Below are positions 36,062 to 45,415 of a stretch of 64,000 bases of DNA, piece after piece (within the stretch, counting starts at the first letter, position 1; each line of letters begins with the position of its first letter). Under the pieces are notes generated by a model that was given only the letters and a program-made list of their open reading frames with translations, was not told the DNA's origin and searched no databases. The translations under genes were made by a program, and so were the position numbers. Source of the DNA: Demequina flava (GTDB lineage: Bacteria > Actinomycetota > Actinomycetes > Actinomycetales > Demequinaceae); contig NZ_BBRA01000001.1 in NCBI RefSeq assembly GCF_000975035.1, positions 1 through 64,000 on the forward strand. Reading direction: 5' to 3'.

Positions 36062-36217
36062 TTACCTGGCGTTTGGATCGGGTAGCGGTTCGTCGTCGCC
36101 GCCCGTGGGCATGTCATCGCGTTCGGGCTTGGCACGCAGGAACAAGATCGATGCGATGAGGCCTCCCCACACCACGGCGAGGGTCACAACCATGAGGATG
36201 ATGGCGCCGGTACTCAT
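36062..36217 (-). CDS. metS: Small subunit of NSS-type methionine/alanine transporter
   Basis: A 51 aa single-span protein (MSTGAIILMVVTLAVVWGGLIASILFL, then a charged tail). It overlaps the transporter stop as ATGA. In Corynebacterium the tiny MetS is required with MetP for methionine and alanine uptake, and this pair has the same layout. Confidence 0.83.
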   Translation of the reverse strand: MSTGAIILMVVTLAVVWGGLIASILFLRAKPERDDMPTGGDDEPLPDPNAR

Positions 36218-37851
36218 CGCGTCTCCTTTGCGGGGGTCGTGTCGTGGTCTGGCGGCGAACTGAGCCCGAGTTGTTCGCGCGTAGGCCACGCCACAAAGTC
36301 ATCGGTGCCGCGCGCCCACTTGATTGTCGGCATGACCAGGGCCGCCACGACGATGAACGCGAGCGTCCCCCAGCCGAAGACGCCCAGGTACCACGTCGGG
36401 TAGCCCTCATAGCCTTCCGAGACGAGCGTGATGACCTTGTCGACGAACATGTACATCAGCAGCACCGCCACGAGTGATGTGACGACGAGCCACACCCTGC
36501 CGACCTTCATCGTGGACACCGCTGACAGGTGACGCGCGAGTTCTTCGCCACGGCGCCCGAACCACATCACCACCACAACCATCAGGAATGCGCCGGCCAC
36601 GATGCCAAGCTGATTCGACCATTGATCCAACGTGTCCAGGAGGTACAGCCCGGTTGTAGTACCGAAGCCGACCAACGACACGATGGCCATCGGGATGCAG
36701 ATCCACAACGCCGTGCGGCGGACGTTGAGGTTGAACTTTTCCTGGATGGCGGAGAGCACGACTTGCAAGACCGAGACAAGTGACGTCATTCCGGCGAGCA
36801 AGAGCGACCCAAAGAACAGCGCACCGAAGATCGCTCCCCCGGGCATTTGCGCGATCACGGCTGGGAATGTGATGAAAGACAGCGTGATCCCGGTCAGGCC
36901 CTCGAGCTCGGATACGGAGACGCCTTGCTGGGCGGCGAGGAAGCCGATGGTTGAGAACACGCCGATGCCCGCGAGCATCTCGAACGACGAGTTACTGAAC
37001 GCCACGACGAGGCCCGGGCCAGTCACGTTGGAACGGCGCTTACGGTACGAGGCGTAGGTGATCATGATGCCGTAGGCGATCGACAACGAGAAGAAGATCT
37101 GCCCGTACGCGGCGATCCACACGGCGGGGTCTCCCAGTGCCGCGAAGTCCGGGCTGAAGAGCGCGTCAAGCCCGTCTGCGGCGCCTTCGAGGAAGAGCGC
37201 TCGCGCCACCAACGCAGTGAACGTCACGACCAGCAGCGGGATCGCAATGATGTTGAGCTTCTCGATCCCCTTGGTCACGCCGAGCGCCAGGACGACGATC
37301 GTGACCACCCAGATCGCAGCCAAGGGCCACAGTACCCCGGGAACGAAGTCGAGGCTGAAGCCAGGATCCGCGGCTTGCAGGTATGTCCCCGTGAAGAACC
37401 CTGCGGGGTCCTCGGCGTAGGCCAGGTTGAAGCTGAAGAAGAAGTACGACAGCGCCCACGCAATGATCACCGTGTAATACAGGCCGATGATGAAACACAC
37501 AGCGACGTGCCACCACCCCACAGCCTCTCCACCCTTGGCCGCACGCTTCAGCGACAGCGGCGACGACCCTCGGAAACGGTGTCCGAGAGCGTGGTCCAGG
37601 AAAAGGATGGGGATTCCCGCCGTGATCAGCGCGATCAGGTAGGGGATCATGAACGCTCCCCCGCCGTTGTCGTACGCCTCGCCTGGGAATCGCCAAATGT
37701 TCCCTAGTCCGACTGCGGAACCGACTGCGGCAAGGATGAAGGCGGTTTGACCCGACCACGCCTCGCGTTTTGGACGCGCCGCTGTCGAGCCGCCTGCGGA
37801 GCCGCCTGTGGAGTTGCTCGCCGGAGGTGGTGCTTCTTCGTCGCCAGACAT
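36214..37851 (-). CDS. metP: Sodium-dependent NSS/SNF transporter, methionine/alanine type
   Basis: A 545 aa neurotransmitter:sodium symporter-family protein with about 12 helices. The N-terminal helix AVGSAVGLGNIWRFPG contains the conserved unwound Na+ and substrate site. The overlap with metS points to amino acid import (Met/Ala). The N-terminal tail is short and polar. Confidence 0.87.
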   Translation of the reverse strand: MSGDEEAPPPASNSTGGSAGGSTAARPKREAWSGQTAFILAAVGSAVGLGNIWRFPGEAYDNGGGAFMIPYLIALITAGIPILFLDHALGHRFRGSSPLSLKRAAKGGEAVGWWHVAVCFIIGLYYTVIIAWALSYFFFSFNLAYAEDPAGFFTGTYLQAADPGFSLDFVPGVLWPLAAIWVVTIVVLALGVTKGIEKLNIIAIPLLVVTFTALVARALFLEGAADGLDALFSPDFAALGDPAVWIAAYGQIFFSLSIAYGIMITYASYRKRRSNVTGPGLVVAFSNSSFEMLAGIGVFSTIGFLAAQQGVSVSELEGLTGITLSFITFPAVIAQMPGGAIFGALFFGSLLLAGMTSLVSVLQVVLSAIQEKFNLNVRRTALWICIPMAIVSLVGFGTTTGLYLLDTLDQWSNQLGIVAGAFLMVVVVMWFGRRGEELARHLSAVSTMKVGRVWLVVTSLVAVLLMYMFVDKVITLVSEGYEGYPTWYLGVFGWGTLAFIVVAALVMPTIKWARGTDDFVAWPTREQLGLSSPPDHDTTPAKETR

Positions 37852-38085: not shown

Positions 38086-39639
38086 TCACGGCGCGGAGAA
38101 CTCAAGCTCCGACGAAGTCGAGAACATTGATGAATACGCACACAGCGACCGTTGCGCGCGTACTGCCACGTCCCGTCGCTCATCGCCTCGCGACCGTTGA
38201 TGTCGTGCTGTGTGAATCGAATCTCGCGGCGGCGGATCCGGTGGAATCCCTGGATCAGGCTCGCGGATGTCTATCGCCCGCACCCCACCGGCAATCGGTC
38301 GGCGGCGAGGGTCGATCTGGGTTGGTGGAATGAAACTCACACTCGTAGCGGTGGCGACGATGTCCCATCCATATCGATGGATGTCATGGTGACAACGGGT
38401 GCAGAGCATGACGCCGTTGTCGAGGTTGGACAGACCACCCCGAGACCACCAGGTGATGTGGTGCGCCTCGCAATGCTCGGGAGGCGCATGGCACTTTGCA
38501 CAGCCCCCATCCCGCTCAAGCAGAGCCAGCCTCTGAGCGCGCGAAAACACACGTACATGCCGCCCAAGGTCGAGCACTTCGCCGTCCTTACCGAGAACCT
38601 CGGGAATGATTCCGGCGTCACCGGCCAGGCGGCGCAGTTGACCCACAGAAACGGGAGCGTCGATGCCGTCGATTGTGCCAATGCCGTCGTCACCCTCGAT
38701 GTCGGAAACGTTCATTCGCACCACAATCGAGGTGCGCACGCCCGAGCGGTCCATCTGCTGGCATCCGGCTGCATGGCGCGCAAGTGTGTGGAGAGCGTCG
38801 GCGCGCATCTGTCCGACCGTGCGCTGGTCAGCCTCAGCGGGATCTGAATCCCTCCGAGCGCGGAAGTCTTGAGTCACCATCTGCTCAATCGCATTGATGA
38901 TGGGAGCCGCAGTCACCGCGTCCATCTGTCCGTGAAAGCGCACCATCCCCCGGTGGTCCTGCTTCCACGCCACGTACCGCTCGTCGTACTGCTCACGCTC
39001 GCGACGCTGCCGTCCCTCACGGTTCGCGCGTGCCAACGCGGTGGCGACCATCTTTTGCACCTCATGCGCTGACAGACCGACGGCCTTGCCAACAAGCCGC
39101 GCCTCGAGCTCGGCGACAGCCTGAGGGTCCAGGTCTTGCGCCGCCTCGTTGAGCGCCTGAACGACGGTCCCGGCAGCCTCCACTGAGAGTTCGCCTGACA
39201 CCTGAGCCTGAGCTACGCGCGGATACTTCACAGACCGCGCAGCACGAGGCCTGGCCGCGTCACGTTCGGCGTCCGCGGGCTCACCACCGCCAAGAAGTCC
39301 CGGCGACTCCGCGACAGGAGCCACGGGCGTAAACGCGTCGCCGGCTTGTATGGTTCGCTTTGCGCGCCCAGCGGTCCCACCTGACCGCTTCGCAATCATC
39401 TTCCCCGCATCTCCGAAGCCTTCGCGGCGTGCGAATCCACCATCCGGGCTACCGGGCGCGGAGCGGCGCGAAATCTCACCCGCAAACCAGGAGTTCAACG
39501 CACCCGCAACCCGTTCCAAACGTGCCGCAGATGCCTGCCCATCACGCAGTTCATCCCGCGACAGCGCCGACGCATCGCCGTCGATGACCGCACTCACCAG
39601 TGCGATTACCCGGTCGATCTCTGCGACGTCGCTTGCCAT
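38086..39639 (-). CDS. DUF222/HNH endonuclease domain protein (13E12 type)
   Basis: About 517 aa: a DUF222 helical domain in the N-terminal two thirds and a C-terminal HNH nuclease (CAKCHAPPEHCEAHHITWWSRGG...DNGVMLCTRCHHDIH) with paired CxxC zinc ligands. These are abundant, often multicopy, actinobacterial proteins of unknown role, and were formerly linked to REP13E12 elements. A TTG start 12 bases upstream (39651) is possible. I see no flanking att-like repeats. Confidence 0.85.
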   Translation of the reverse strand: MASDVAEIDRVIALVSAVIDGDASALSRDELRDGQASAARLERVAGALNSWFAGEISRRSAPGSPDGGFARREGFGDAGKMIAKRSGGTAGRAKRTIQAGDAFTPVAPVAESPGLLGGGEPADAERDAARPRAARSVKYPRVAQAQVSGELSVEAAGTVVQALNEAAQDLDPQAVAELEARLVGKAVGLSAHEVQKMVATALARANREGRQRREREQYDERYVAWKQDHRGMVRFHGQMDAVTAAPIINAIEQMVTQDFRARRDSDPAEADQRTVGQMRADALHTLARHAAGCQQMDRSGVRTSIVVRMNVSDIEGDDGIGTIDGIDAPVSVGQLRRLAGDAGIIPEVLGKDGEVLDLGRHVRVFSRAQRLALLERDGGCAKCHAPPEHCEAHHITWWSRGGLSNLDNGVMLCTRCHHDIHRYGWDIVATATSVSFIPPTQIDPRRRPIAGGVRAIDIREPDPGIPPDPPPRDSIHTARHQRSRGDERRDVAVRAQRSLCAYSSMFSTSSELEFSAP

Positions 39640-39784
39640 ACCTACACTCAATCAGAGGGGTCTGACATGGAACCATCGGCCCACCAAAATCCCAGGCAAA
39701 CGCACAACACCCCGCGCAGCGAGCGATCCACCGGAGTGGACCGCCCACCACACGGGGCGTCGCGGAGGAAGTAGCGCTCGAGCG

Positions 39785-42199
39785 TTAGCCCAGCGTCACC
39801 ACGACCTCTACCTCAGCACCAGGCTCTTGTACGGGAATCGGCGCGGACGCATCGACAGCCACACCGTCGACAGTCACAGACGCCACACCCTTCGACACGT
39901 GCGACGGGTTCTTCACCTCGATGTTGTACACGGCTCCGCGCCATTCGCGACGGACGTTGAACCCGTCCCAGTCCTTCGGAATGGAGGGGTCAACGATCAG
40001 ACCATCGAAGGCCAGACGGATACCCAAGATGTACTTGGTCACCGCGGTGTACATCCAGCCGGCGGTTCCGGTCAGCCACGGGTTCTGGGCCTTGCCGAAC
40101 CACTCGTGGTCGCGTCCGTAGAGGAACTGCACGTACGCGTAAGGCTCCGAACCGCGGACCTCGATGTTGTCGTTGTGGTTATACGGCAGGATCTTGTCGT
40201 AAAAGTCGACAGCCTCGTCGCCGCGTCCCAGCATGGCCTCGGCGATGATGGGCCAAGCGTTGGGGTGCGAGAAGATTGCCGCGTTTTCCTTGATGCCTGG
40301 GTAGACACGCGTCACGAAGCCAACGGTGTCGTCAACCTCGGTGAAGGCCGGCCAGTTCAGGTGGTTGCCGTATTCGGAGCCCAGCAGTTCGCGCACGGAG
40401 TTCATCGACTGCTCGCCGCGTTCCTGGGACGTGATGCCCGCGATGACGGGCCATGCCTGGTGCTCAAGGAAGATCTTGCCTTCCTTGTTCTCGTTCGACC
40501 CCACCTTGACGCCGTCGCGGGTATAGCCGCGGATCCACCAAGCGCCGTCCCACAGCTGCTCATCAGCAACCTTGGCAATTCGCTCGCGCTCGGCCGTGTA
40601 CGTCTCGACAGCCTCGGCATCGCCGCGGTGTTCAGCAACCTCGAGGAACGCGTTGATAGCCCACGCGTGCAGGAACGTCACGAGCGAGGTCTCGCCGCCG
40701 CCCAGGTTCAGGCAGTCGTTCCAGTCCGCGCGCAGACCCAGTGCCACACCGTTCTGGCCGATCTGCTCAGCAGAGAAGTTCAGCGCGGCCTTCAGGTGCT
40801 CGTAGACAGTCGCCTCGGGCCCGTCCGCGAACGGAATGACCTCGTCGAGGAAGGCGTGGTCGCCGGTCTCCTTGACGTACTCGATGATCGAGGGCACCAG
40901 CCACAGGTGGTCATCGGAGCAGGTGTCCTCGAGGCCGTGGATGAGGTCGTCCATGGATGGCGTGGGCACGATCGTCGGCGACGGAATGTCGGGAAGCTTC
41001 TCTGCATCTGGGTCGAACGACTTGGGATCGAACAGGTGGATGCCGTAGCCGCTGGAGACCTGAGCGCGCAGCAGTTCGATGATGCGCTGGCGCGTCTTGG
41101 TGGGGTTGGAGTGGATGACGCTCATGACGTCCTGCGCGGTGTCGCGGTATCCAAGCCCGGTACGCCCACCGACCTCGACGAACGAGGCAAAGCGCGACCA
41201 CACCACACAGGTTTCCGCCTGCAGGAGCGTCCACGAGTTGATCATCGTGTTCATGCCCTCGTGCGGGGTGGAGATGCGCTGCTTGGACTGCTTGTTCTTC
41301 CAGTACTGGCGTAGCGCGGCGAACTCGGCGTCCACGTTTGCGACGTCGGCGTACTTGGCCTGGATCTCGCGTCCCGCAGCGTCACGCGAGCCGTAGCCGA
41401 GCATGTAGACGAGGCGCTTGGTCTCGCCGGGCTGCAGCGTCACCTTGTGCTGCAACGAACCGCAGTGGTTCTGCGTGGTGGCGGACTTGTTGGTGCCCTC
41501 TCCACGCTCGATCGCGATGGGGTTGCGCTCATCGCGGTACGGGCCAATGAAGTTATCGCGCAGCGAGTCGTACGAGTCCGGCGTCTCCGAAGAGCAGAAG
41601 TAGTGGAACGTCCAGGGCTCGTAGTAGAAGTCGTACTCGATGATGCCGTCTTCATAGGACGACCCCGAGGCGTACAGCGACATCTGCAGGTTCTGGTTGT
41701 CGATCTCGATGGTGTGGAAGGAGAACTCCACGTACGAGCCGACCGTCAGTTCGCGGACCTTGTCCGACGTGTTGGTGACGCGGACGTCCCACAGCTCCAC
41801 GTCGTCATCGAGCGGAATGAAGATGGTGTGCGAGGTGTCGATGCCGCGGTAGCTCGACTCGAAGCGCGAGTATCCCAAGCCTTGCGCGGTGGTGTACTTC
41901 GCGGCGCCCTCCCCCTCGAAGGGCTTACCGACGGGCTGCCATGCCGACGACCAGTAGTCGCCGTCCTCGTTGTCACGCACGTAGACGTAGTGACCAGGAC
42001 GGTCCAGCGCCGCGCCGTTCTGACGGAAGCGCGAGATGCGTCCGTACTGCGAGGACTTGTAATACGAGTACCCACCGCCGTTGTGCGACAGCACGGTGCA
42101 CATGTTCTTGGTGCCCAGATAGTTGGTCCAGGAGACAGGAACGTCGGGGCGGGTGATGACGTATTCGTCATTGTCGGTGTCGAAGTGGCCGTACTGCAT
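39785..42199 (-). CDS. N,N'-diacetylchitobiose phosphorylase (GH94)
   Basis: An 804 aa GH94 enzyme that matches Vibrio chitobiose phosphorylase along its whole length from memory: MQYGHFDTDNDEYVITRPDVP at the start, WSRFASFVEVGGRTGLGYRDTAQD in the middle, and catalytic Asp 492 in GLRADWNDCLN. It phosphorolyses (GlcNAc)2 to GlcNAc-1-phosphate plus GlcNAc, saving one ATP. It is cytosolic, with no signal peptide. It lies 93 bases downstream of a sugar-phosphate enzyme fusion on the same strand, so the two act in sequence. Cellobiose phosphorylase is the alternative, but the start and mid blocks favour chitobiose. Confidence 0.88.
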   Translation of the reverse strand: MQYGHFDTDNDEYVITRPDVPVSWTNYLGTKNMCTVLSHNGGGYSYYKSSQYGRISRFRQNGAALDRPGHYVYVRDNEDGDYWSSAWQPVGKPFEGEGAAKYTTAQGLGYSRFESSYRGIDTSHTIFIPLDDDVELWDVRVTNTSDKVRELTVGSYVEFSFHTIEIDNQNLQMSLYASGSSYEDGIIEYDFYYEPWTFHYFCSSETPDSYDSLRDNFIGPYRDERNPIAIERGEGTNKSATTQNHCGSLQHKVTLQPGETKRLVYMLGYGSRDAAGREIQAKYADVANVDAEFAALRQYWKNKQSKQRISTPHEGMNTMINSWTLLQAETCVVWSRFASFVEVGGRTGLGYRDTAQDVMSVIHSNPTKTRQRIIELLRAQVSSGYGIHLFDPKSFDPDAEKLPDIPSPTIVPTPSMDDLIHGLEDTCSDDHLWLVPSIIEYVKETGDHAFLDEVIPFADGPEATVYEHLKAALNFSAEQIGQNGVALGLRADWNDCLNLGGGETSLVTFLHAWAINAFLEVAEHRGDAEAVETYTAERERIAKVADEQLWDGAWWIRGYTRDGVKVGSNENKEGKIFLEHQAWPVIAGITSQERGEQSMNSVRELLGSEYGNHLNWPAFTEVDDTVGFVTRVYPGIKENAAIFSHPNAWPIIAEAMLGRGDEAVDFYDKILPYNHNDNIEVRGSEPYAYVQFLYGRDHEWFGKAQNPWLTGTAGWMYTAVTKYILGIRLAFDGLIVDPSIPKDWDGFNVRREWRGAVYNIEVKNPSHVSKGVASVTVDGVAVDASAPIPVQEPGAEVEVVVTLG

Positions 42200-42235
42200 G
42201 GGGTGACAGTGTCCGTTCTTTGGATTGAGAGGTAG

Positions 42236-42266
42236 GGGCCGATGCTACGGGCACCGGGCCGATGCT
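42236..42266 (+). repeat. Two tandem motif copies between the fusion gene and chitobiose phosphorylase
   Basis: GGGCCGATGCT at 42236-42246 and again at 42256-42266, 20 bases apart in the same orientation, the second extended with GTGG. They fill a third of the 93-base gap. Confidence 0.8.
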
Positions 42267-42292
42267 GTGGGGGACCTGGGTATTGGGTTCAG

Positions 42293-44485
42293 TTAGGCAG
42301 TCACGAAGGACTTGAGCCAGTCCATCAGTTCCGTGGCCTTCTCCGGGCTGTCCGCTTCGACGAACATGCGCAGGATGGGCTCGGTGCCAGAGAAGCGAAG
42401 GAGCGCCCAGTTGTCATTCTCCAGCAGGATCTTGGTGCCGTCGAGGTGACTGATCGACTTCACGGGGTACGGCCCGATGTGCGTCAGTGGGTCGGCTTCA
42501 AGGCGACGGGGCACGGCCACGCGCATCTCAGGAGTCGCAGGCACGCCAGCTTCCTCTGTGTAGAGGCGCCCAGTGATCTCGTAAATCATGGCGCGCAGCT
42601 CGGAGATCCGCTTGCCGGTCTGGGCCAGCATCTCCGCAACAAGGGCACACGCGAAGATGCCGTCCTTGCCCAGAATCCAGCCGCGCACGGTCAGGCCACC
42701 GGAGGATTCGCCGCCGAGCACGGCGTCGATCTCGTCCATGCCCGCAGTCACGTGCTTGAAGCCCACGCGGCACTCGCGCGACTCCTCGCCAAAGTGCGCG
42801 GCAAGGCGGTCCAACAGGTGCGTCGTCGCGAGGTTGCGGACTACGCCGCCCTTTTCGCCACGGACCTCGTGCAGGTACCAGTACAGGAGGAGCAGGAGGT
42901 CGTTTGTAGAGATGTACTCGCCGGTCTCGTCAACGATGCCGATGCGGTCGGAGTCACCATCGGTCGCCATGCCGAGGTCGTACTCCCCGTCAGCCTTCTT
43001 GATGATTCCGATCAGGCTGGACAGACGCTGGAGGTCAGGCGCGGGCGCCACGCCACCAAACAGCGGGTTGTGCGCGTCGTGAATGAACTCCGCGCGCACT
43101 CGCATGTCGGACAGGATGGTGCCGAGCGTCAGCTGGCTGGTGCCGTACATGGGGTCCACGACCACGCGCAGGTCGGAGCCGCGGACAGCCTCAACGTCAA
43201 TGATCTTCTCGATCGCGTCGATGTAGGGCTCGGTGAGCGGCTTGTCGACGACCATGCCGGCCTTGCGGGCCAGCGGCAGGTCGAGCGAGATGACGTCATC
43301 CACAGACATGGCGTTGGCCTCGTCCTGGTAGCGGTCCGTTTCCTCGTCCAGCGGCAGCGAGCCGTCCGCGCGGAAGACCTTAACGCCGTTCCACTCCGGC
43401 GGGTTGTGGCTCGAGGTGATGATGACGCCATATGCCGCGTTCGTGTGCGGCGCAGCGAAGGTCACGAGCGGAGTCGGAACATCGTCAGGCAGCAGGATCA
43501 CGGGGATGTTGTTGCCGGCGAAGACCTCCGCGGCAGCCTCAGCTGACTCGCGAGACAGGAATCGACGGTCACCACCAATGACGACGCCCTTGCTAGCAAT
43601 CCCCTGGCGCGTGGCCTCGTTCGCGACGGCCTGGCACAGGCGGCGCAGGTTGCCGAGCGTGTAGCCCTCGCCGATGACGGCACGCCAGCCACCGGTACCA
43701 AACTTGATCGTGGTGTCGGTGTCCTTCTTCGGCATGAACAGGCGCTTCAACACAATGTCGGCTGCCTGCTGCAACTCCTCAGGCGTGTTGATGCCCTGGA
43801 CCTCATCAGGGTCAAGGCTGCGGTAGGTCACGACCGTGGAGCCGTCCTGGATGAACTGGCGCGCAACCTCGGTCAGGCGGTGCTCGCCCTTGGCCGCGAG
43901 CGCATCGATCTGCGCGAACAGGCGCTCGGGGGCCGCAACGTAGGAGCCCACGTTGATCTCGTGCAGGTCTGCCTCGGCCGTCGTCAGATCTTCGGGCTCA
44001 ACAATCGAGGTGACCTGGTCGTGGTCGCCCCGCTCGATGCGCCCGTACGGCAACGGCTGGTCAACTACTGCAGAGAGCAGAGAGAAATCCGCGCCGAGCA
44101 AGTGGTGACGGTTCAGCAATCCCCGCAGCGAATCGGTGCGCAACAACGGCGTGTCAGCGTATGTGACCAACAGTGCCGCAGCATCGGCCGGAATCGCGGA
44201 GCGGGCCGCAAGGACCGCGTCTCCCGTACCCAACGGCTCCGTCTGCTCGACGTAGGTCAGGTCGGTGCCCAGGTGCTCGCGAATGGCGGCGTCTCCCGGA
44301 GCGGTCACGACCACGATGTGGCTCGCGGGCACCACTGCGCGGACGTTCTTGAGCGCGAGCTCGGCGACCGTGGAGTCCCCGAGGGACTCGGACAGCAGCC
44401 CCCGCGAGGCGTCATCTGCGCCAGCGGCGAGGACGACAGCCGCGGTGACGGGCTTGGCGAAGGGTGACTCGGCGTCTTTGGCCAT
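42293..44485 (-). CDS. GlmU-like nucleotidyltransferase fused to a phosphohexomutase
   Basis: A 730 aa fusion. Residues about 13-250 resemble the GlmU uridylyltransferase domain: QTEPLGTGDAVLAA, the YADTPLL divalent-metal strand, YGRIER, EINVGSYVA and GINTPEELQQAADIVLKR. The nucleotide loop after VVLAAG is ADDASRG instead of G-x-G-T-R-M, so catalysis is doubtful. Residues about 255-730 form a complete alpha-D-phosphohexomutase with Ser 359 in TSSHNP, metal loop DGDSDR (509-514), sugar loop GGESSGG and phosphate loop RFSGTEP. It sits upstream of chitobiose phosphorylase, so GlcNAc-1-P to GlcNAc-6-P is a likely reaction. GAGGAG precedes ATG 44485. Confidence 0.82.
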   Translation of the reverse strand: MAKDAESPFAKPVTAAVVLAAGADDASRGLLSESLGDSTVAELALKNVRAVVPASHIVVVTAPGDAAIREHLGTDLTYVEQTEPLGTGDAVLAARSAIPADAAALLVTYADTPLLRTDSLRGLLNRHHLLGADFSLLSAVVDQPLPYGRIERGDHDQVTSIVEPEDLTTAEADLHEINVGSYVAAPERLFAQIDALAAKGEHRLTEVARQFIQDGSTVVTYRSLDPDEVQGINTPEELQQAADIVLKRLFMPKKDTDTTIKFGTGGWRAVIGEGYTLGNLRRLCQAVANEATRQGIASKGVVIGGDRRFLSRESAEAAAEVFAGNNIPVILLPDDVPTPLVTFAAPHTNAAYGVIITSSHNPPEWNGVKVFRADGSLPLDEETDRYQDEANAMSVDDVISLDLPLARKAGMVVDKPLTEPYIDAIEKIIDVEAVRGSDLRVVVDPMYGTSQLTLGTILSDMRVRAEFIHDAHNPLFGGVAPAPDLQRLSSLIGIIKKADGEYDLGMATDGDSDRIGIVDETGEYISTNDLLLLLYWYLHEVRGEKGGVVRNLATTHLLDRLAAHFGEESRECRVGFKHVTAGMDEIDAVLGGESSGGLTVRGWILGKDGIFACALVAEMLAQTGKRISELRAMIYEITGRLYTEEAGVPATPEMRVAVPRRLEADPLTHIGPYPVKSISHLDGTKILLENDNWALLRFSGTEPILRMFVEADSPEKATELMDWLKSFVTA

Positions 44486-44516
44486 CGGTGTGCTCCTCAG
44501 GTCGACCACATTGTTT

Positions 44517-44535
44517 GTTAGGAAACCTACCTAAC
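44517..44535. promoter_or_regulatory. Operator-like inverted repeat before the chitobiose operon
   Basis: GTTAGG and CCTAAC face each other across 7 bases that also contain CCTA, giving overlapping half-sites (TAGGAAACCTA). It is 32 bases upstream of the fusion start in an unusually AT-rich patch (TTGTTTGTTAGG). The pattern recalls ROK-family sugar repressor sites; this assignment is inference. Confidence 0.5.
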
Positions 44536-44613
44536 TCCTGAGTGAAGCCTATCTTCTTCCGGCCACATCGCATAGACACGCAGGCGCGCCACGAGCAAAA
44601 CGCGGGTTTAGAA

Positions 44614-44624
44614 GGGCCGATGCT
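44614..44624 (+). repeat. Intergenic motif copy GGGCCGATGCT
   Basis: It is followed by CGGGCCC, so this copy alone can fold a short GGGCC/GGCCC stem. It lies between the fusion gene and the lipoprotein gene. Confidence 0.65.
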
Positions 44625-44680
44625 CGGGCCCAGAGCACAGCAACGTCGCCACACGAGGTGGCAAGGTGAGCGCGGAAGGG

Positions 44681-45415
44681 CTACTGCGTGGCGGAAAGCC
44701 AGTCGCGCGCCTGGGCCCGCGCGGTGTCGAGCGAGGCGCGGCGGGCGCGCAACGAGTCCGCATCCGTGCCGGCCGCTGACGACGTGTCAGCATCAATCGC
44801 CTCGGCGAGTAGACGCAGAACCTGCTGCCCCTGAGCCGCGCGGTGACGCCGCTCGTCAGAGGGCGCGGACTCGGTGAGTTCGTGCAGTGCCTGGTCTGTG
44901 TCAATGACCCGCGTGCGGCCCGCCTGCCACATCGACATCGCTTCCGTCTGGCTGGGCTTGGCGAGGATCTGCGGGATCAGCGAGTCCTCGAACCAGGCGA
45001 TCTCCGCGCGAGCCTCCATGAGCTGCTTGTCCCACCCGCTGCGCTTGGAGTGCCACACACCCCAGATGATCGCGATGGCGGCAAGAATGAGCGCCGCGAT
45101 GGCCCACGGCCACAACTCGTCACCGGAGCCGTCTGCGACGTCATTGCTCGACGCGGTTTCCGTCGCGGTCGGCGTGGGCGTGGGCTCCGGGTCCGGCTCG
45201 GGAGCGATCGTCTCGGTCTCCGTGGGAACGGGCTCCGGGTCTTCAGTCACCGTCTCCGTCGGAGCGGGCTCAGGACTACTGGAGTTGTCCGGAACGCGCG
45301 TGATGCTCGGAAGGTTCGAAGGATCGATATCCGGCAAGTACCCACAGCCCGCGACTCCCGTCACAAGCGTGGCGCCAAGGATCAGTGCGGTAATGCGACG
45401 GGCAGTAGACCTCAC
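44681..45415 (-). CDS. Putative lipoprotein with linker, membrane span and helical domain
   Basis: A 244 aa product from GTG 45415 (GGAGGA upstream). The signal ends in lipobox VAGC, followed by a long Pro/Glu/Thr linker, a single membrane helix (LWPWAIAALILAAIAIIWGVW) and a helical cytosolic or extracytosolic domain of about 110 residues. No family is recognised. A lipid anchor plus a later span would make a loop-like topology. Confidence 0.6.
   Translation of the reverse strand: MRSTARRITALILGATLVTGVAGCGYLPDIDPSNLPSITRVPDNSSSPEPAPTETVTEDPEPVPTETETIAPEPDPEPTPTPTATETASSNDVADGSGDELWPWAIAALILAAIAIIWGVWHSKRSGWDKQLMEARAEIAWFEDSLIPQILAKPSQTEAMSMWQAGRTRVIDTDQALHELTESAPSDERRHRAAQGQQVLRLLAEAIDADTSSAAGTDADSLRARRASLDTARAQARDWLSATQ

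Follow-up and report, generated by a model that had tools for sequence, protein, structure and literature searches.

A chitobiose-phosphorylase-type GH94 gene paired with a phosphohexomutase carrying a degenerate GlmU-type domain

N-acetylglucosamine-1-phosphate (GlcNAc-1-P) stands at the fork between chitin catabolism and cell-wall synthesis. The window, by which we mean the whole 64,000-nucleotide stretch of Demequina flava DNA analyzed here (contig NZ_BBRA01000001.1, positions 1 to 64,000), carries on its minus strand two open reading frames (ORFs) that would meet at this intermediate: a 730-residue fusion of a GlmU-type nucleotidyltransferase domain with a phosphohexomutase and, 93 bp downstream of it, a GH94 phosphorylase. 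What does a domain of biosynthetic ancestry do on a mutase so placed? The initial annotation, whose account of both ORFs and their domains we reproduce with Pfam, proposed that the fusion unites the anabolic and catabolic fates of GlcNAc-1-P as two enzyme activities, or else that the transferase domain serves in sensing or binding. The second proposal fits the sequence evidence best. With confidence and doubt about evenly balanced, we read the locus as a two-gene chitobiose catabolic module in which the pseudo-pyrophosphorylase domain of the mutase probably binds uridine diphosphate-GlcNAc (UDP-GlcNAc) or GlcNAc-1-P and regulates.

The phosphorylase and its mutase partner

The GH94 protein carries both GH94 domains, PF06165 (E 8.9e-74) and PF17167 (E 4e-173). 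In a comparison with all PDB sequences, its best match is 1v7v, the chitobiose phosphorylase (ChBP) of Vibrio proteolyticus, with 1089 bits over residues 1–804. The remaining 19 distinct sequences matched reach at most 529 bits; the second best, 8bou at 529 bits, is itself named a diacetylchitobiose phosphorylase, while cellobiose phosphorylases score no higher than 494 bits. The aspartate of the WND motif is kept (Asp495, aligned with Asp492 of 1v7v), and we take it to be the general acid. Six pairwise comparisons of four Demequina sequences gave ratios of nonsynonymous to synonymous substitution rates (dN/dS) of 0.038–0.084. The sequence evidence supports a ChBP type rather than a cellobiose or other phosphorylase, in agreement with the identity first proposed. 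Such an enzyme would use phosphate to cleave N,N'-diacetylchitobiose, releasing GlcNAc-1-P and GlcNAc.

The mutase half of the fusion is intact, as had been claimed: PGM_PMM domains I–IV span residues 260–722, and the TSSHNP, DGDSDR, GGESSGG and RFSGTEP loops, presumably serving phosphoserine, metal, sugar and phosphate, are all present, which places it in the alpha-D-phosphohexomutase superfamily. Its dN/dS lies between 0.036 and 0.052 in the six Demequina pairs. Among the best 25 of 27 NCBIfam matches, phosphoglucomutase, phosphomannomutase and phosphoglucosamine mutase models match alike and far below their curated cut-offs, and the scores do not assign it to GlmM (TIGR03990, 270.2 against a cut-off of 439; TIGR01455, 146.3 against 447.55). 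Because several models match alike, all below cut-off, they do not settle which sugar the mutase takes; we infer a specificity for GlcNAc phosphates from the ChBP context only. This ambiguity would also suit a module that handles glucose, composed of a cellobiose-type GH94 and an ordinary phosphoglucomutase. We regard that module as very improbable given the gap between 1089 and 494 bits, the presence of another GH94 in the same genome (37% identical, at C3:916951) distant from the fusion, and a palindrome common to the fusion and a chitinase gene, described below. In contrast, it is highly probable from the sequence context that the mutase acts in a GlcNAc-1-P route, where it would convert GlcNAc-1-P into GlcNAc-6-P, degradable by the nag genes of the host.

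The fusion was found in 4 of the 44 genomes of the genus and in 17 of the 396 genomes of the order, where 16 more match the mutase half only (E 1e-60); the flanks of 13 loci fetched from those 16 held no match to the transferase domain of the fusion. A ChBP-type GH94 (at least 57% identity) occurs in 19 of the 396 order genomes, namely the 17 with the fusion and two incomplete metagenome-assembled genomes (MAGs; G203 and G227). A mutase lies directly upstream at 16 of these 19 loci and the other three are cut by contig ends; counted from the fusion, 16 of 17 order genomes are paired, and in G261 the two genes lie on different contigs. In G190, the fusion is divided over two contigs and the ChBP gene follows its 3' part. 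All 11 named loci are paired as well, from Demequina, Flavimobilis, Cellulomonas, Luteimicrobium, Paraoerskovia, an Actinomycetes MAG and a Chloroflexota (Chloroflexi) MAG. Ten of them encode the whole fusion (61–95% identity in the best segment), and the eleventh, L041, is cut by a contig start (78% identity over residues 360–730). Read by eye, neighbors beyond the pair vary between genera. The tie to GH94 thus holds at every named locus and at all 16 ChBP loci of the order whose upstream flank is not cut, and fusion homologues do not occur mostly away from GH94 genes, the outcome that had been put forward as counterevidence. A chance or frame artefact is ruled out by the four genus genomes and the 11 named loci that encode the fusion. 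Broken frames do occur in the fusion at L038 (7950–12753, where ChBP is affected too) and at L040 (8001–10161), through assembly error or decay.

In a phylum sample searched at E 1e-80, 31 of 396 genomes match; the window's own genome is the only one with the fusion, and the other 30 match the mutase half only. A class sample searched at E 1e-160 held a ChBP-type GH94 in the window's own genome only (1/394). We also considered a general association of GH94 with mutases. Any GH94 match is present in 80 of the 396 order genomes, and neither a mutase nor the domain stood beside GH94 within the flanks covered at 11 loci fetched from the other tiers (34–46% identity), so that no such association was seen there.

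The GlmU-like domain

Pfam places NTP_transf_3/NTP_transferase at fusion residues 34–220, and NCBIfam GlmU models cover residues 16–249 only, with TIGR01173 the best at 128.8 bits against a cut-off of 366.85. The fusion is not a bifunctional GlmU: the hexapeptide acetyltransferase half is absent and the score falls below the cut-off. A full-length AlphaFold2 model built from nine sequences has a mean predicted local distance difference test score of 67 and a predicted template modeling score of 0.48. Its N-terminal part matches GlmU structures 4aaw (Z 23.8, 217 residues aligned, 2.6 Å) and 1g97, a UDP-GlcNAc/Mg complex (Z 22.9, 219 aligned, 2.9 Å), and its mutase part matches 1tuo (Z 29.1, 417 aligned, 3.8 Å). 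In model and sequence, the N-terminal domain has the fold and pocket residues of a GlmU uridylyltransferase.

We aligned 21 fusion rows with the GlmU of the same genome and that of Escherichia coli, whose residue numbers are used here; rows with broken frames (L038, L040), partial (L041) or copied (L043 of L034; L031–L033 of L002–L004) sequences, and L117, which has no fused domain, were left out. The initial annotation reported the loss of the GxGTRM loop, and this is borne out: GADDASRG follows VVLAA in the window, and no row has the GxGTRM...PK triphosphate loop. G16, R18, M19 and K25 are kept in 0/21 rows and T17 in 1/21; in the 15 rows with a full domain, G16 is replaced by Asp throughout and K25 by Leu (13 rows), Ile (one) or Val (one). 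The rest of the pocket tells a different story. Q76, G81, D105 and N227 are kept in 21/21 rows, and the 15 full domains retain T82, Y139, R141, N169 and T199 without exception, G140 in 14 and E154 in 13; Y197 is Arg in all 15. Fifteen of 21 rows, the window fusion among them, therefore retain almost the whole uridine/Mg/GlcNAc pocket. The roles of these residues (uridine Gln and Gly, Mg Asp and Asn, GlcNAc, triphosphate) are ones that we assume from GlmU biochemistry.

These patterns argue against two enzyme activities in one chain. The triphosphate loop and its lysine are lost in every row, six rows lack the sugar segment, and a separate GlmU, scoring above cut-off, is encoded in the genome. 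The domain comes from a GlmU-type uridylyltransferase. Having lost the loop that binds and activates the triphosphate of UTP, it probably makes no UDP-GlcNAc, and from the alignment we consider it highly probable that it is no longer a uridylyltransferase. An active uridylyltransferase with a remodeled loop, through which the fusion would make UDP-GlcNAc straight from chitobiose-derived GlcNAc-1-P, is accordingly hard to credit, and we consider it improbable, although the Mg Asp and Asn, the uridine Gln and, in 15 rows, the GlcNAc residues are kept and the domain is under purifying selection.

That selection is evident in Demequina, where the dN/dS of the domain is 0.057–0.131 in the six comparisons (with dS at 0.95–1.48, near saturation), or 1.4–2.9 times the mutase value; selection constrains the domain, if more loosely than the mutase. 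Unconstrained debris is ruled out within Demequina by these values, which come from Demequina sequences only.

A ligand-binding domain is the most likely role, because most members keep the uridine, Mg and GlcNAc pocket. From the retained residues and by analogy with the non-catalytic pyrophosphorylase GMPPA, described below, we tentatively place a ligand-binding regulator a little short of an even chance. The domain would be a built-in binder of UDP-GlcNAc or GlcNAc-1-P that adjusts the mutase, in a direction we can only infer, and would set the share of chitin-derived GlcNAc-1-P that is burned as against left for GlmU and the cell wall. A more specific version, in which the dead GlmU is a UDP-GlcNAc sensor that reads the pool of cell-wall precursor and gates GlcNAc-1-P burning against UDP-GlcNAc synthesis, is possible and more speculative.

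Several observations weigh against ligand binding and regulation. Six rows (L049–L054, one genus) lack the Y139–E154 sugar segment and have T82 replaced by Pro and N169 by Asp, yet retain the domain, which means that sensing of GlcNAc cannot be its function in all fusions. L048, the tree sister of five of the six (L054 is outside the tree), retains the segment, and its loss thus came later; if the sensor reading is true, this lineage lost the sugar pocket and uses the domain otherwise. Their sequences argue for an additional structural role, at least there. Extended to all fusions, a purely structural part that has no role for a ligand and serves as an oligomerization or substrate-channeling scaffold, perhaps toward ChBP, would also agree with G122, R126 and L129 in the helix at residues 117–130, which are identical in 21/21 fusions and differ in both GlmU rows, and with the looser constraint on the domain. 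We judge it unlikely, however, since a mere scaffold has no need of the pocket that 15 of 21 rows retain. Arg at residue 28, present in 20/21 rows, could partly replace R18 and speaks for the active transferase; the register within the triphosphate loop is uncertain, as this stretch of the alignment is gapped. The structural model is only moderate, and the linker, the domain arrangement and the route of any signal are not reliable in it. Finally, in G261 (fusion L045) the fusion and ChBP lie on different contigs (L125 and L073; C22 and C13). The ChBP gene begins 103 bases into its contig, and a portion of the intergenic sequence is present on both contigs, which leaves either a contig break or a rearrangement in the gap.

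Origin, metabolic setting and a candidate operator

A tree of 40 mutases gathered 18 fusions on one branch (support 100/100) with the Chloroflexota copy outermost. The nearest non-fusion rows are a group of free-standing mutases (f11) and the mutase L117 from a plasmid of Subdoligranulum, a Firmicute; the tree program warns of long branches meeting, including that of the fusions and the pairing of L117 with f11. The motif GGESSGGLT is common to the fusions, 13/13 f11 rows and L117, and 19/19 more distant mutases of the phylum (L098–L116) have GGEESGG. L117 is unfused, 43.0% identical, and lies directly after a ChBP gene; read by eye, it is followed by a sensor-kinase-like gene and then sugar ATP-binding cassette (ABC)-transporter-like genes. 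On account of this unfused pair, the partnership of mutase and ChBP probably predates the fusion. In the plasmid search, GH94 matches turned up in 133 records and did not exceed 60% identity; of the two records inspected, the second, L118, shows no annotated mutase next to GH94.

The f11 mutases (L055–L067) resemble the mutase half in identity (43–46%), in the shared motif and in their place on one tree branch with the fusions (7/13 rows in the tree), and differ in having no fused domain. At one f11 locus, L129, an operon-like block (L129:678-5763) combines the mutase with an intact nucleotidyltransferase on a chain of its own, a galactokinase-like GHMP kinase and an ORF that matches no family; a sugar-1-phosphate salvage route is possible there. 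An origin of the fused domain from a nucleotidyltransferase beside f11 mutases is unsupported: the window domain has no BLAST match at E 1e-3 among the ORFs of the f11 loci, whereas the GlmU domain of its own genome gives weak matches to them.

The separate GlmU of the genome is complete (724.6 bits against a cut-off of 611). NagA, NagB, ROK kinase and GH3 genes adjoin in one block, with a binding-protein-dependent transport permease near. With both present, GlcNAc-1-P can in principle reach GlmU and GlcNAc-6-P can reach NagA/NagB. A NagA match (E 1e-20) was found in 13 of the 14 fusion genomes tested (14 of 17), three of them above the curated cut-off. The NagA frame of the window's genome (L122:1510-2385) is short: its 291 aa begin at profile position 57. 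At genome level, the family match crosses a stop codon, and the N-terminal part may be lost or misread.

Upstream of the fusion lies a 19-base palindrome, GTTAGGTAGGTTTCCTAAC, whose exact sequence occurs once in the genome. The next best site, with two mismatches, falls where a GH18-ChiC-CBM5/12 chitinase gene begins (G000:C3:531726-531744; L131, L133); a second GH18 gene follows the chitinase, and a LuxR-type gene lies on the opposite side. The chitinase site recurs in three of four Demequina genomes (the gene identified by Pfam in one and by eye in two) and is missing from G021, and the reversed pattern gave no sites. Weaker sites adjoin an acetyl-CoA-synthetase-like gene in three genomes and an unrelated gene in G038. 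Searches of two genomes from another genus gave no site in one and, in the other, a site next to an unrelated gene; upstream of five named fusions outside Demequina (L034–L038) such a palindrome was found in L034 only, and L039 has none. As a sequence pattern, the palindrome may mark a chitin regulon, and it remains a lead only because orthologous sites in close relatives are not independent.

Table 1. Positions of the gene pair, its domains and motifs, and the palindrome in the window
Feature	Position	Strand	Basis
Fusion gene (degenerate GlmU-type nucleotidyltransferase domain and alpha-D-phosphohexomutase), 730 aa from ATG	42293..44485	-	ORF, Pfam, NCBIfam
N-terminal GlmU-like pseudo-nucleotidyltransferase domain, residues 14-245	43751..44446	-	Pfam and NCBIfam GlmU models; structural match 4aaw
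Replaced triphosphate loop GADDASRGL, residues 22-30 (GlmU: GxGTRM...PK)	44396..44422	-	21-row alignment
Phosphohexomutase region, residues 258-730	42296..43714	-	PGM_PMM I-IV; nearest solved structure 1tuo
Phosphoserine loop TSSHNP, residues 357-362	43400..43417	-	Sequence motif
Metal loop DGDSDR, residues 509-514	42944..42961	-	Sequence motif
Sugar-binding loop GGESSGG, residues 591-597	42695..42715	-	Motif also present in two groups of free-standing mutases within this subfamily
Phosphate-binding loop RFSGTEP, residues 697-703	42377..42397	-	Sequence motif
GH94 phosphorylase, ChBP type, 804 aa	39785..42199	-	ORF, Pfam, PDB ranking
GH94 Asp495 in RADWND, aligned with Asp492 of 1v7v	40715..40717	-	PDB alignment
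Palindrome GTTAGGTAGGTTTCCTAAC, putative operator, 31 bases upstream of the fusion ATG	44517..44535		Sequence scan

A scan of 39500–44800 for terminator-like sites returned two only, both on the plus strand and at chance level, and a promoter scan likewise stayed at chance level. Downstream of ChBP, 38086–39651 encodes a DUF222-HNH protein whose C-terminal part weakly matches an IscB model, far below cut-off, and 36214–37851 a transporter of the sodium:neurotransmitter-symporter family.

Comparison with known systems

The locus is a variant of an already known catabolic pair of ChBP and mutase, not a new kind of system; we found no description of the fusion among the papers listed by our searches of open-licence PMC, which does not imply its absence from print. 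A disarmed biosynthetic enzyme on a catabolic mutase would offer a simple, testable case of a pseudo-enzyme at a metabolic fork, and the natural fusion variants show a stepwise decay of the domain.

The closest parallel is the (GlcNAc)2 operon of Vibrio, compared here by its published description. Vibrio cholerae is reported to encode the GlcNAc-1-phosphate mutase VC0611 and the (GlcNAc)2 phosphorylase VC0612 in one operon (PMC5209532). A ChBP-type GH94 beside a phosphohexomutase and the expected flow from chitobiose through GlcNAc-1-P to GlcNAc-6-P are common to both systems (PMC5209532, PMC12282291). The Demequina mutase differs in carrying an N-terminal GlmU-like pseudo-domain and in preceding ChBP, and no sugar-ABC-type transporter gene stands beside the pair within the window.

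With the N-terminal domain of GlmU, the fusion shares the fold, the uridine Gln and Gly, the Mg Asp and Asn and, in 15/21 rows, the GlcNAc residues; it lacks the GxGTRM...PK loop and has a mutase in place of the acetyltransferase half. For a dead pyrophosphorylase as nucleotide-sugar sensor, the proposed principle has an analogue in GMPPA, a pyrophosphorylase reported to be non-catalytic, to bind GDP-mannose and to inhibit GMPPB (PMC11228364). GMPPA is, however, a separate subunit with a left-handed beta-helix (PMC9168903) and regulates a pyrophosphorylase, whereas here the domain is fused to a mutase and its binding is predicted. A mirror image is encoded in another genome of the phylum, where a nucleotidyltransferase and a phosphohexomutase again share one chain (NTP_transferase-hexapeptide-PGM/PMM; L128:520-3018): there, the transferase is of a different type and retains an intact loop (GEGTRL..PKP), a beta-helix (hexapeptide) domain lies in between, and it is the mutase that departs from the expected motif, with SPFDP instead of SHNP.

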